Positions 10,855 through 40,090 of a stretch of 47,368 bases of DNA are shown here, piece by piece. Position numbers and translations under genes: made by a program. Every line of letters starts with the position of its first letter. The stretch's first letter is position 1. This DNA comes from Candidatus Altimarinota bacterium. Its GTDB lineage: Bacteria; Patescibacteriota; Gracilibacteria; BD1-5; UBA6164. The notes beneath the pieces are model-generated. The model did no database searches. It was not told the DNA's origin and saw nothing but the letters and a program-made list of their open reading frames with translations. The stretch spans positions 1-47,368 of the forward strand of contig JAQVGG010000010.1 of the NCBI GenBank assembly GCA_028696815.1, written 5' to 3'.

Positions 10855-12234
10855 ATGACAAAAAATAAGATTAAATTTTCACATGTTTTGATTTTTTTAA
10901 CAAGTGTTTTAACATTTTTTTTACTATGACTTGCTTCTTCTGATCAAATAAAGGTTTTCTATGTTAAAAATATATTAAAAAAAGATATAGAAACAAGTTA
11001 TCTAACAAGCAATATTGATGTATTTTGAGAAAAGGATTTAGATTTAAAAAGATTTTGGGATGTTTATAGTTTAGTAAAGAAAAATTATTATTCTCTTGAT
11101 GGAGTAAAAGAACAAGATTTAGTAGATGGCGCAATAAAATGAATGGTTGATGCTCTTTGAGACAAGCATACAGAGTTTATGAACAATGAAGAAACAAAGA
11201 GATTCAATGAAGTATTAGCTTGAGATTTTGAATGAATCTGAGCAGTTGTAGAAAAGACAGATATTTGAGTAAAGATAGATAGAATCATAAAATGAAGTCC
11301 AGCAAAAAAATACTGATTATTAAAAGATGATATAATAACTGAAGCGAACTGAACAGAATTAATTGATTTACCTTTATATGATGCTGTTTCACACATAAAA
11401 TGACCTGCTTGATCTAGTGTTAATTTAAAAGTACTAAGAGCTTGAGAAAAAGACATCCTAGAGTTTGATGTTATAAGAGATAAGATAAAAATACCATCTG
11501 TTGAATCAAAAACATTTGATGATTGAAAGGTTTGATATATTGCTTTAAATATGTTTTGAGATAATTCATCAGAAGAGTTTAAAACAGCATTAAATGAACT
11601 AAAAAATACAGACGGTTTAATTATTGATTTAAGAGATAATGGAGGATGATATCTACAAAGTGCTGTTGAAATACTTTCTGAGTTTATAGAAAACTGAAAA
11701 GTACTTGTGTCTACTAGATATAGAAATAGTTTGATGAATATAAACTATAAGAGTGTAAACTTCTGAGAAATCTATGAAGGGAAAATAGTTGTGCTTATAA
11801 ACTGAAATAGCGCTTCAGCTTCTGAAATCACTGCATGAGCACTAAAAGATCACGATAAAGCAATAATAGTTTGAACTAAATCGTACTGAAAATGATCAGT
11901 ACAACAGCCATATGATTTAGAGTGAGGGGAACTTCTTAAACTTACAATAGCAAAATGGTTTACCCCAAATGGAAAAAATATAGATGAAGAGTGAATAGAG
12001 CCAGATGTAGAGATAGAGTTTAAAAAACAAGATTATGATTTTGAGGAGTGTAAAAAGGCATGAAAATGTAGTCAAGATATGAAAAAAGAAGACTTTGAAC
12101 TATATGACAGACAACTAGAAGCAGCAAAAGAACTACTTAACAATTTCATCAGTTTTGCAAGTATAGATAAGGCAATTGAGTTATATAAAGATAAGCATAA
12201 AGAGGAGTTTGTCAGTGGAGGAGAAGTAAAATAA
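10855..12234 (+). CDS. ctpA: C-terminal processing peptidase, S41 family
   Basis: 459 aa. One N-terminal membrane anchor (residues about 9-27) is followed by a segment typical of Ctp proteases (RFWDVYSLVKKNYYSLDG), a PDZ domain (about 110-190, with GIGAVVEK and GSPAKKYGLLKDDII), and the S41 catalytic core. The catalytic Ser lies in NSASASE (residues 318-324) and the Lys in TKSYGKGSVQ; both glycines of GKG are TGA codons. These proteases act outside the membrane and trim C-termini or clear misfolded envelope proteins. A C-terminal region of about 100 residues after the catalytic core contains two Cys (ECKKAGKCSQ). The gene stands alone, followed by the accessory region at 12236-13495. Confidence 0.93.
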
Positions 12235-12235
12235 T

Positions 12236-12325
12236 CCCTTCCCCCTGCAGGTACTGCTTCGCTTCAACTTCAAAATAGTCGTGTCACCACTCCTTTTTTC
12301 ACTTGTCCCTTTGGAAAAGGGAGAG
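12236..12325. repeat. Dispersed repeat, long form (copy in intergenic DNA)
   Basis: This C/T-rich stretch directly after the protease stop is closely similar to a segment inside mutL. CTTCGCTTCAACTTCAA at 12257 matches 38505, followed by ATAGTCGTG, a variable triplet, CACTCCTT, TTTCACTTGTCCC and AAGGGAGAG. The last part (TCCCTTTGGAAAAGGGA) is a small palindrome. It belongs to the family of C/G-rich repeats that also occur in fmt, prmC and mutL. Confidence 0.8.
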
Positions 12326-12361
12326 ATCAGAGGTGCAAATACTAAAAAGTGAAAAAAAAGT

Positions 12362-12389
12362 TTGACATATGTAAAAAAGTAAATATAAA
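12362..12389 (+). promoter_or_regulatory. Sigma-70-like promoter of the GC-rich unit
   Basis: A perfect -35 TTGACA (12362-12367) is followed after 16 bases by TATAAA (12384-12389). It is the cleanest promoter in the window and points directly into the GC-rich unit. Unlike that unit, the promoter itself is AT-rich and looks native. Confidence 0.7.
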
Positions 12390-12464
12390 GAAAAACGACT
12401 CCCTTGAACTAAGGTTCTTGTGGATGTCACAACAATCCGAAGAAAAGCCTAAGGAGGCAAACGA

Positions 12465-12713
12465 ATGAAACGGACCGCAATCCTGGCCGCACAGGCCAAA
12501 CAGTGTATGCACGCCAAGATCATCGCCGGCGCCTTCGACCATGCCATCGGCTACTCCGGAACCACCGCCCATGACACCGGGCAGGGCCTGGGTGGCTCCT
12601 CCAACGGCGCGCACACCGGCTCCGACGACGTCTGAGGCCGGTCGAAGGTAGTACCCAGCTTCTTAACGCTGGTAAGTAGTTGTTCTTCGAGAAGTACCGA
12701 AGGAGCCCCGTAA
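12465..12713 (+). CDS. Putative small ORF in the GC-rich unit
   Basis: ATG at 12465 lies 7 bases after a perfect AAGGAGG. Under the standard code the ORF ends at TGA 12633-12635 (56 aa); under code 25 it continues to the TAA in the terminator loop (82 aa). The first 56 codons use almost only C or G in the third position, as in a high-GC genome and unlike every neighbour. The peptide begins MKRTAILAAQAKQCMHAKII and turns Gly/Ser/Thr/His-rich. I recognise no family. It is either a recently acquired gene whose TGA was meant as a stop, a peptide in a dual-function RNA, or chance within a structured RNA. The strong SD and third-position bias favour real coding in its source genome. Confidence 0.4.
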
Positions 12714-12735
12714 GGGGCTCCTTTTCTTTTTCCAA
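12701..12735 (+). terminator. Strong intrinsic terminator of the GC-rich unit
   Basis: A perfect 10-bp stem AAGGAGCCCC / GGGGCTCCTT with a GTAA loop is followed by TTCTTTTT. It is the most GC-rich terminator in the window. Confidence 0.9.
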
Positions 12736-12776
12736 GATTTTAACATCAAATTCTTTTTTCCCTTGATAAACATTTT

Positions 12777-12820: not shown

Positions 12821-12909
12821 TCTTATGAATTATAAATTTACTCAAAAATTGATGGTTTGTTTTTAGTTTTTCAGTTGTTTTCGGAGGAATTTTTGTATAT
12901 TTCAGAGAA

Positions 12910-12955
12910 AAATTCCCCTATAATCCCCTTTTATAAAGGGGATGAGCTGCAAAGT
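12910..12955. repeat. Left inverted repeat of the DUF559 cassette
   Basis: AAAAATTCCCCTATAATCCC continuing into CTTTTATAAAGGGGATGAG. Its reverse complement occurs at about 13391-13430 on the other side of the DUF559 gene, with a match of about 39 bases. Within the arm, CCCCTTTTATAAAGGGG is itself a palindrome. Confidence 0.85.
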
Positions 12956-12974
12956 AAATAATAATTATAGTACT

Positions 12975-13406
12975 ATGGAAAGAGAATTTTGGGATGAGGA
13001 TTATTTGAAAAGCAGATGACTTATCTTTTGATGAAAATATTTACCATATAATCCTAATCTCCAAGAGAGAGCTAAGGAAATGAGAAAAAATTTAACTTTA
13101 GCAGAAAGAAGACTATGGGTAAGTTTTTTGCAAAAGTATAATAAAAGATGAGAAAATAAGATTACAATATTAAAACAAAAAGTTATTGATAATTATATAG
13201 TTGATTTTTATATACCAAACTATAAACTAGTAATTGAAGTTGACTGAGAAAGTCATGTAAATAGAGAATGATATGACGAAGAAAGAACAAATATATTGAA
13301 TTGATATTGATTACAAGAGATTAGGTTCTCAAATTATGACATTTTTAATAATTTTGAAACTGTTTGTAATAAACTAAAACAAATACTGTCCTCATCCCCT
13401 TTATAA
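12975..13406 (+). CDS. DUF559 endonuclease-like protein
   Basis: 143 aa. It shows the DUF559 layout: YLPYNPNLQERAKEMRKNLT, then LAERRLW, then the Vsr-like endonuclease core with VIDNYIVDFYIPNYKLVIEV, DGESH and YDEERTNIL, ending in EIRFSNYDIF. The core resembles very-short-patch-repair and other PD-(D/E)XK nucleases; Asp and Glu in VDFY and VIEVDG are the likely metal ligands. The gene lies between inverted copies of a C/G-rich palindromic repeat, and its last codons (SSSPL-stop) are encoded by the right repeat. Glycines are partly TGA, so it is adapted to code 25. The surrounding repeat also occurs inside other genes of the window. Whether the protein moves or processes the repeat is inference. 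Confidence 0.88.
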
Positions 13407-13513: not shown

Positions 13514-14848
13514 ATGAATTTCGAAAATCTAAAAAAATCAGATCCTACTTGTTATAATCTTGTTCTTGAAGAAATAGAAAGACAAGAGACAAGTCTAGAG
13601 CTTATTCCAAGTGAATGTATAGCTTCACTTTCAGTTATTGAAGCGCTTTGAAGTCCATTTACAAACAAATACTCTGAGTGATATGCTAAAAAAAGATATT
13701 ATGGATGAAATGAAGTTGTAGACGAAGTAGAACTACTTGCTATAGAGAGAGTTAAAAAAGCTTTTCCAGGAGTAGCTCATGCAAACGTACAAGCTTACAG
13801 CTGAAGTCCTGCAAATATGGCAGTTCTTAATGCTCTTTGTAATGTTTGAGACACTATTATGGGGCTTGCTTTATCTCAAGGATGACACTTAACCCATGGT
13901 CATATGGTATCTGCAACAGCTAAGTTTTTTAATGCTGTTCAATACTGATTAGACAAAGATTGATACATAAATATAGAAGAAGTTGAAGCTTTAGCTCGTG
14001 AACACAAACCAAAAGTAATAATTGTATGATTTACAGCTTACTCTAGAGAGTTTCCTTTTAAAGAGTTTGCTAGAATTGCAGATGAAGTAGGAGCATACTT
14101 ACTTGCTGATATATCTCATATCTCAGGACTTGTAGTATCAGGAGTACATACTTCACCAGCTCCATATGCTGATGTTATCATGACTACAACTCATAAAACT
14201 CTTAGATGACCAAGAGGAGCCTTGATTATGACAACAGAAAAATGATTACAAAAGGATTCTGAGCTTGCAAATAAGATAGATAAATCGGTATTTCCTGGTT
14301 TACAATGAGGTCCTCATAACCACCAAACGCTAGCTATAGCTGTTGCTCTATGAGAAGCTTTGACACCTGAGTATAGAGAAATAAATACTCAGATCGTTAA
14401 AAATGCAAAAACTCTAGCAAGTGAGCTTATAAATCATGGATTTGAGCTTGCAACTGGTGGTACAGATAATCACTTACTTTTGATGAGTACTTGAAAATGA
14501 AGATGACAATATATGCAAGAAGCCCTTGATTTAGCGGGTATTACGCTAAATAAAAATACTATTCCAAATGAACCATGTAGTCCATTTAATCCAAGTGGTA
14601 TACGTATGTGAACACCTATTATGACTATGAGAGGGATGAAAGAAGATGAGATGATACAAGTTGCTGCATGGATAAAAAGAGTAGCAGATGCTATATTTGA
14701 GTTTGAGTACGTAGAAGACAAAGATACAAGAGTTGTTAGACTAAAAGAATTTAAAGAATTTATAAAAAATAATGAAGAGATAGCAAAAATAAGAGCTGAA
14801 GTTAAAGAGCTTTGTTTAAAATTTCCAATTTATAGTTTTAAAGGATAG
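13514..14848 (+). CDS. glyA: Serine hydroxymethyltransferase
   Basis: 444 aa. The PLP enzyme converts serine and tetrahydrofolate to glycine and methylene-tetrahydrofolate. Visible are [11 protein letters not shown] (usually LIASEN, substrate site), KRYYGGNEVVD, VQAYSGSPANMAV, GGHLTHGH, the PLP lysine motif [16 protein letters not shown], and PGLQGGPHNH. The C-terminal domain ends normally. In a UGA-glycine organism glycine supply is of special interest, as it feeds many more codons. The gene starts 18 bases after the repeat remnants of the DUF559 cassette and opens a tight run through fmt. It is the first gene of a probable operon with a 6-base gap to the HD gene. Confidence 0.96.
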
Positions 14849-30968: not shown

Positions 30969-31080
30969 TGTCATTCTGAACTTGTTTCAGAACCATTAAA
31001 TGTAAATACAATATTTAGAAAAAATATTCTTTGATTATAAGGAGGATAAATTATGATTCTGAAACAAGTTCAGAATGACA
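30969..31080. repeat. 24-bp inverted repeat spanning the efp start
   Basis: Arms 30969-30992 (TGTCATTCTGAACTTGTTTC plus AGAA) and 31057-31080 are perfect reverse complements, 64 bases apart. The right arm lies within the reading frame of efp directly after its first ATG. It looks like a MITE or a similar mobile repeat. Confidence 0.85.
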
Positions 31081-38134: not shown

Positions 38135-40090
38135 ATGTCTAAAATTATAAAACTAGATAAAACTTTAGCAAATCAGATAGCTGCTTGAGAAGTGGTAGAA
38201 AGACCAGTATCAGTAGTAAAAGAGTTGGTTGAAAACTCAATTGATGCTGGAGCAACAAGTATAAAAGTAGAGATAAAGTGAGGCTGAATAGATGAAATAA
38301 TAATAACAGATAATTGAACAGGTATAGAAAAAGAGGATTTATCTTTGGCTATAGAAAAATACTCAACTTCAAAAATCAAATCTTTGCAGGATTTATACAA
38401 TGTGATGACTTTTGGGTTTAGATGAGAAGCTTTAGCCTCTATATCTTCTGTTTCAAAGTTTCAAATAATTTCTAAAAAGAGCCACAGCCCTCACTCAGTC
38501 TCTACTTCGCTTCAACTTCAAGATAGTCGTGCAAGCACTCCTTCTTTCACTTGTCCCAAAGGGAGAGAAGAAGCTACAATAATAGATTCTTGAGGTTATA
38601 GTTTAGAAGTAGTTGATTGAGAAAAAACAGATATAGTTTCATATCCTTGTGAAACTTGAACAAAGATAATAGTAAAAAACTTATTTTATAATACTCCAGC
38701 TAGGCTCAATTATTTAAAAAAGCAGAGAACTGAGTATGCTCACATCCTTGAATTTTTAAACGCAATGAGTTTGGTATATCCTCAAATAGGTTTTGAGTTT
38801 GTAAGTGATGAAAAATCAGTTTTTAAATATCCTGAAAAACAAGACTTAAAAACTCGTATTTATAATATATATTGAGAAGAGTTTTCTGATAATTTACTAG
38901 AAGTAAATGTAGAACTTGTTTGAGTAAAGATTTCTGGATATATATCAGATCCAAAAGTATCTTTTCCAAATAAAAATAGACAAAGTCTTTTCGTAAATAA
39001 AAGGGTTATCAAATCTCCCCTAATTTTTAAGTCAATATCTGATGCATATAACAGATTTATACCTCATGGAAGTTTTCCTGCTTATGTTTTAAACATAGAT
39101 GTTGACCCAACACAAGTTGATGTAAATGTCCATCCTAGAAAACTTGAGGTTAGGTTTGCGAATGAAAGCCAAATATTTAGATGAGTTTACCATGCTGTTG
39201 AGGATAAATTAAATAGCGTGAGTTTAGTGAGCTCATCTCAACAAATAAACCCCTTATCCCAGCCTTTCCCCTCAAGGGAGAAAGGGGTAGAACAATGTAG
39301 TAATGTAGCTATTCTTTCTCCCTTGGGGGGAAAGTTAGATAGGGGGACTTACTACACAGGTTCTTGAACTAAATTTAAATCATATAGTCCATATAAAGAT
39401 ACAAGTGCAAATCCTGCACAGGCTAATATATCTGATGCAATAAACTTTAGTAAAGGTATACTTGATAATAGTAAGCCAGGAGTTGATTTAGAAAGGAATG
39501 AGAGAGATCTTCACGATACTCCTCTTTGAAGGATTATATGACAAGCACATAACTCTTATATCATAGTTGAAACTAAAGATTGAATAAAATTTTTAGATCA
39601 ACACGCTTTGGCTGAAAGAATAATTTATGAAAAATTAATTAACTCTAAAACTTGATTTAAAACTCAGGGGCTTCTGATTTGAGAATCGCTAAATCTTTCA
39701 CCAAAAGAGTTAAATATACTTGAGGAAAATAAAAATATCTTTGAGGAGATGTGATTTGATTTTGAGATAATGTGATGAGCCATAATTATGATAAATGGAA
39801 TACCAGATTTTGTAAAAAAAGAAAATATAAAAAATATATTTTTATGAGTTTTAGATGATATATGAGAACATGAGTTTACAAAGTCAAAAACTCTGCAAGA
39901 AATTAAAAATAAAATATACGCTTATACTGCTTGTAGATCAGCTATAAAATTTGGAAATAAATTAAATCTGTTTGAGATGAACAAACTGCTTTGCGATAGT
40001 GTTTGAGATTATAGTTCAACGTGTCCACACGGAAGACCAGTAGTTTTTGATATTAATTTAGAAGAGTTGAAAAATAGATATGAAAGATAA
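38135..40090 (+). CDS. mutL: DNA mismatch repair protein MutL with two in-frame repeat inserts
   Basis: 651 aa. The N-terminal GHKL ATPase is complete: [51 protein letters not shown] and [13 protein letters not shown], then [11 protein letters not shown] and [13 protein letters not shown]. The C-terminal dimerisation domain begins near residue 465 ([20 protein letters not shown]) and holds [25 protein letters not shown] and CPHGRPVVF, as in MutL proteins with an endonuclease-type C-terminus, though the DQHA motif is used and should be checked. Residues about 116-146 (38481-38572) and 371-405 (39246-39350) come from C/G-rich repeats. The first lies between conserved strands of the ATPase domain, the second in the natural linker. 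Confidence 0.95.
38481..38572. repeat. In-frame long-form repeat inside mutL
   Basis: Closely similar to the intergenic copy at 12236-12325, sharing CTTCGCTTCAACTTCAA, ATAGTCGTG, CACTCCTT, TTTCACTTGTCCC and AAGGGAGAG in the same order and spacing. It is read in-frame as about 30 residues ([20 protein letters not shown] and on). Confidence 0.85.
39246..39350. repeat. In-frame palindromic repeat pair inside mutL
   Basis: CCCCTTATCCCAGCCTTTCC is followed by CCTCAAGGGAGAAAGGGG; about 60 bases on, TTTCTCCCTTGGGGGGAAAG and AGGGGG occur. The two parts are roughly inverted relative to each other and are translated in-frame in the linker of MutL. Confidence 0.78.

Follow-up and report, generated by a model that had tools for sequence, protein, structure and literature searches.

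A GC-rich transcription unit between ctpA and glyA of a TGA-recoded gracilibacterium, probably a captured standard-code gene

Why does a unit of about 340 GC-rich bases, with its own transcription and translation signals, lie between ctpA and a DUF559 gene, with glyA next, in an AT-rich Gracilibacteria genome in which TGA is expected to mean glycine? The unit was found at 12362-12735 of the window, by which we mean the whole stretch of 47,368 nucleotides that was analysed. An earlier note, made by reading the letters of the window, had described a promoter, AAGGAGG seven bases before an ATG, an ORF ending at TGA and a perfect GC-rich terminator, all of which we located in the window sequence (Table 1). 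It had offered a new structured RNA, a dual-function RNA or a gene recently taken from a high-GC donor as readings. Transcription is predicted to start at about 12396. The pattern TTTGACAW-N15-TATAAW occurs 6 times genome-wide, and 12353-12387 is an 86% match to the promoter region before a ClpP-like gene in the same genome.

Table 1. Features of the unit and of its neighbourhood in the window
Feature	Position	Strand	Basis or remark
ctpA-type S41 peptidase, native left neighbour	10855-12234	+	TGA=Gly code
A-rich tract, UP-element-like, immediately 5' of the -35 box	12343-12361	+	Sequence
Sigma-70-type promoter TTGACA-16-TATAAA	12362-12389	+	Sequence; -35 at 12362-12367, -10 at 12384-12389
5' untranslated leader, about 45% GC	12396-12464	+	No significant folding, z -1.4
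Shine-Dalgarno AAGGAGG, 7 bases 5' of ATG	12451-12457	+	Sequence
56-codon ORF MKRTAILAAQAKQCMHAKIIAGAFDHAIGYSGTTAHDTGQGLGGSSNGAHTGSDDV	12465-12635	+	ATG 12465, TGA 12633-12635; high-GC, standard-code coding signature
Extension if the host reads TGA as glycine	12633-12713	+	82 aa in total; TAA in terminator loop; without coding periodicity
Intrinsic terminator GAAGGAGCCCC-GTAA-GGGGCTCCTTT, then TCTTTTT	12699-12731	+	11-pair GC-rich perfect stem 12699-12724; z -5.4
Native conserved micro-ORF MNYKFTQKLMVCF	12825-12866	+	Marks the ancestral ctpA-glyA interval; outside the inserted unit
DUF559 gene	12942-13406	+	TGA read as glycine; no match to it before glyA in those relatives that were searched
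glyA, native right neighbour	13514-14848	+	TGA read as glycine

Composition and coding signature of the unit

In 40-base windows, GC is 0.20 at the promoter, reaches 0.78 over 12581-12620 and drops to 0.10-0.22 past 12740, a steep rise and fall that bears out the earlier description of a GC-rich unit with AT-rich flanks. The unit holds the top 150-base GC window (0.69) among 331 kb of genome sampled, window included, for which the 99.9th percentile is 0.587. The other windows above 48% GC in this sample belong to a purC gene, described below, and to stretches taken as rRNA or tRNA genes. Neither the leader nor the 3' region of the unit is strikingly GC-rich (about 45%).

The length of the ORF is by itself ordinary, an equally long ORF being present in 11% of shuffles. 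Its composition by codon position is 0.61/0.54/0.84 for GC and 0.18/0.34/0.64 for C, in the frame of the ATG preceded by the Shine-Dalgarno sequence. The wealth of C or G at third positions that had been seen by eye was thus recovered (GC3 84%, third-position C 64%), and none of 5000 dinucleotide shuffles matched the C periodicity. Past the TGA the GC periodicity is gone (0.41/0.67/0.48). Native ORFs of the window (n=29) have a GC3 of 0.10-0.25, compared with 0.84 in the ORF of the unit. Periodicity that is set in the frame of the Shine-Dalgarno-preceded ATG and ends at the TGA suggests a protein gene from an organism of high GC content that terminates at TGA.

Codon usage points in the same direction. 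For synonymous codons, the log-likelihood ratio of host to purC-type usage is -72 in the ORF and +19 or more in each of 200 native 56-codon windows, so that the ORF sides with purC and every native window with the host. The fit of the ORF to purC usage exceeds that of all 3000 composition shuffles and of all five other frames. The third codon of the ORF, CGG, is found just once among 12,166 host codons; this codon may be read as tryptophan in some Gracilibacteria (Shulgina and Eddy, PMC8629427). All nine glycine codons of the ORF are GGN, and no in-frame TGA stands for glycine before the TGA at which it ends. The native ORFs contain 531 in-frame TGA glycine codons versus 279 GGN. A model search of the genome for release factor 2 gave no match above the cut-off, and the one match below it, with 11 in-frame TGAs, was read as RF1. 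Release factor 2 therefore appears to be absent from the host, which should accordingly not terminate at TGA. This, together with the many in-frame TGAs of native ORFs, agrees with the earlier expectation that TGA is glycine in this organism.

A Shine-Dalgarno-like site precedes the ORF of the unit and only 2 of the 29 native window ORFs. Among the latter, the full AAGGAGG site was seen only at an efp-like ORF at 31053 (31033-31052). The sole predicted feature of the 56-residue peptide is a low-confidence helix spanning residues 6-34; the AlphaFold model of the single sequence, with one helix and a pLDDT of 60, is uninformative.

Folding of the transcript and searches for homologues

The unit could also be read as a lineage-specific structured non-coding RNA, bounded by the promoter and the terminator, whose high GC content would give stability in an AT-rich genome. 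Consistent with this, the rise and fall of GC coincide sharply with the promoter and the terminator, the 5' end is predicted to pair with the 3' region, and the folding z-score of the whole unit is -3.6. That score includes the terminator and is due to it: the terminator has a z of -5.4, but the unit without it gives only -1.6 (p 0.075) and the ORF alone +0.6. The many hairpins noted earlier are thus real in that they are as numerous as the GC content predicts, but excess folding outside the terminator did not hold up. An Rfam search of the unit gave no family match, permissive threshold included. The best 150-base GC values of the structural RNAs in the same genome are far lower than the 0.69 of the unit, at most 59% for rRNA, 47% for RNase P RNA and 39% for tmRNA. 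Moreover, a third-position C bias locked to the frame of the Shine-Dalgarno-preceded ATG would be unexpected for an RNA, and 353 genomes of the class yielded no relative beyond chance matches. Taken together, these results speak against the proposal of a new structured RNA, which we regard as rather improbable, and we found nothing in favour of a dual-function RNA.

The earlier judgement that the unit is neither tmRNA nor RNase P RNA was correct, both being found elsewhere in the genome (tmRNA at C28 and C5, RNase P RNA at C1) and neither inside the window. The two tmRNA matches above the cut-off (G000:C28:22060-22518 and G000:C5:117-562; 77.8 and 71.3 bits) each lie at a contig end, and they could be either two copies or a strain mixture.

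Homologues were sought with the DNA and with the peptide, which at 56 aa is a short and weak query in all such searches. At the DNA level, no copy of the unit turned up in 147 relatives or in 353 genomes of the class. The matches of 18-32 bases obtained in class genomes cover mostly the terminator and its T-rich tail and are at chance level. Searches of about 380 phylum genomes, phages, plasmids and viral contigs gave nothing above chance, nor did Pfam, PHROGs, NCBIfam and PDB contain a homologue above chance. A peptide-pattern scan of 85,000 species genomes detected no homologue, at the price of an exact 8-residue match that diverged relatives can escape. Seven matches to AFDHAIGY in the genome collection were rejected, as their sequences are unrelated to the peptide. 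A repeated element was also considered and dropped, the unit being single-copy in its own genome.

A second lone GC-rich gene and the ctpA-glyA site in relatives

A genome-wide scan for runs of third-position G or C picked out two places: the ORF of the unit and C41:847-943, which is the 3' end of a complete purC (SAICAR synthetase; C41:223-936, 237 codons). This gene has a GC3 of 0.73, a TAA stop and no in-frame TGA. Its unit (G000:C41:156-985, L079) comprises an AT-rich promoter, a GAAGGAG site and a perfect GC-rich terminator. Native code-25 genes follow downstream; purC lies 222 bases from the contig end, and the long flank is therefore on the downstream side only. At the DNA level, purC is 73% identical to Pseudomonas aeruginosa purC over 87% of the query, and the matches to it in the family are weak and partial (29-40% identity), with no full-length counterpart. 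Judged from these comparisons, purC is of evident foreign origin and of gammaproteobacterial type.

Both units place a lone GC-rich standard-code gene in AT-rich code-25 sequence, and both combine an AT-rich promoter, a strong ribosome site and a perfect GC-rich terminator. They differ in that purC encodes a known enzyme, has a clear relative of gammaproteobacterial type and stops at TAA, whereas the ORF in the window is an orphan and stops at TGA. A lone foreign GC-rich gene in such a like arrangement is the strongest support for reading the unit in the window likewise.

The order ctpA-glyA is kept across the family. Where the end of ctpA is traceable in relatives, the interval mostly comprises 70-350 AT-rich bases and at most about 1.1 kb; no stretch exceeds 55% GC per 100 bases in these intervals. 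The GC-rich island is missing from the site in all relatives in which both genes were found. Here the interval measures 1279 bases and additionally holds the island and the DUF559 gene.

Some observations concern the sequence around the site itself. Between ctpA and glyA, about two-thirds of 30 family loci carry a conserved 11-14-codon micro-ORF, M[NI]Yxx[T/I]xKL[VI]... (window 12825-12866; L019, L022-L026, L030, L031, L033, L034, L036-L041, L043 and L045), for example MNYKFTQKLMVCF, MNYTYTTKLVLLD and MNYKHTTKLVLLGQ. At several of these loci a hairpin and a T run follow before glyA. The micro-ORF could be a leader peptide with an attenuator, or a micro-gene. Upstream of the unit, 12257-12309 is one copy of a dispersed repeat of 53 bases, the other being 38505-38557 (90.6% identity). 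The latter copy lies within mutL and adds an insert to the protein, and 'PFPxxEKG' inserts like that of mutL are present in fmt- and prmC-like ORFs.

An assembly or binning artefact, in which a fragment from an abundant high-GC co-resident was joined into the contig, would also account for a unit that no relative carries, and the draft assembly comprises 41 contigs, its estimated contamination being 6.24%. It would, however, require that two misjoins arose independently at a distance of 340 bases, in AT-rich sequence in both cases, one precisely at the promoter and the other immediately after the terminator. A complete purC stands in the same arrangement beside native genes, and no match was obtained in phage, plasmid or viral collections, or in the genome collection with the patterns used to scan it. 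We therefore consider an artefact unlikely.

Absence from relatives would also fit what remains of a small mobile element, or the cargo of one: a cassette carried on a phage or plasmid and ending in the AT-rich flanks. Imperfect inverted repeats (12347-12365 and 12746-12764, 16/19) and a direct repeat (12293 and 12753, 12/13) flank the unit, and among predicted Gracilibacteria phages there are some that have retained the standard code (PMC10746230). These repeats are nevertheless A/T tracts, common by chance here. Neither a transposase nor an integrase lies nearby, no second genomic copy exists, the phage and plasmid searches gave no match, and no phage gene was recognised beside the unit. A mobile element is thus very unlikely.

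Proposed history of the unit and comparison with known systems

The best explanation is a short protein-coding gene recently acquired from a high-GC standard-code bacterium, a homologue of the peptide not having been found; we put the probability of this reading at roughly two in three. The earlier suggestion of such a donor is supported on several counts: the periodicity stops with the TGA, codon usage is foreign, as is the style of the ribosome site, relatives lack the unit at the syntenic position, and the genome has a second lone gene, purC.

Transcription from the AT-rich, host-like promoter would produce an RNA of about 330 nt, with termination predicted at 12724-12731. In the donor, translation from the AAGGAGG site would yield a 56-residue peptide. 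In the host, glycine would be inserted at the TGA and translation would run on to the TAA in the terminator loop, giving 82 aa with 26 residues added in all. Reading the TGA as glycine would thus alter and extend the product, and as the tail lacks a coding signature, the host product is probably unselected. Most likely the unit arrived recently as a passenger, or it serves as a small accessory gene that still tolerates the extra tail. That a small gene functions in both codes, as 56 aa in the donor and 82 aa in the host, or that its transcript is a dual-function RNA, strikes us as highly improbable.

Because the promoter shares the AT-richness of the host, it is uncertain where on the left the foreign DNA starts. 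The foreign part seems to set in close to the start of transcription, as it does in purC, and on the basis of these two cases we conjecture that promoterless foreign genes may be captured behind host promoters.

If the captured gene is what it seems, this ORF and purC suggest that a recoded, reduced bacterium keeps acquiring single genes from standard-code neighbours, and one donor, judging by purC, may have been a gammaproteobacterial neighbour or prey. An ORF that still ends at TGA would represent an early stage of transfer, before stop repair or gene loss, and would give a direct view of a changed genetic code as a barrier to gene transfer.

Phages of Gracilibacteria that are compatible with the standard code have been described (Liu et al. 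2023, PMC10746230), and they suggest one route by which standard-code genes could enter. As proposed here, genes written in the standard code there enter a host with TGA as a glycine codon; unlike the ORF in the window, which ends at TGA, the phages seldom use this codon as a stop. The unit also resembles known single-gene acquisitions in CPR (Patescibacteria) in its foreign composition, its absence from relatives and its position inside a conserved gene pair. It differs from them in that the gene in the window would have crossed a genetic-code boundary, and its TGA stop should fail in the recipient.
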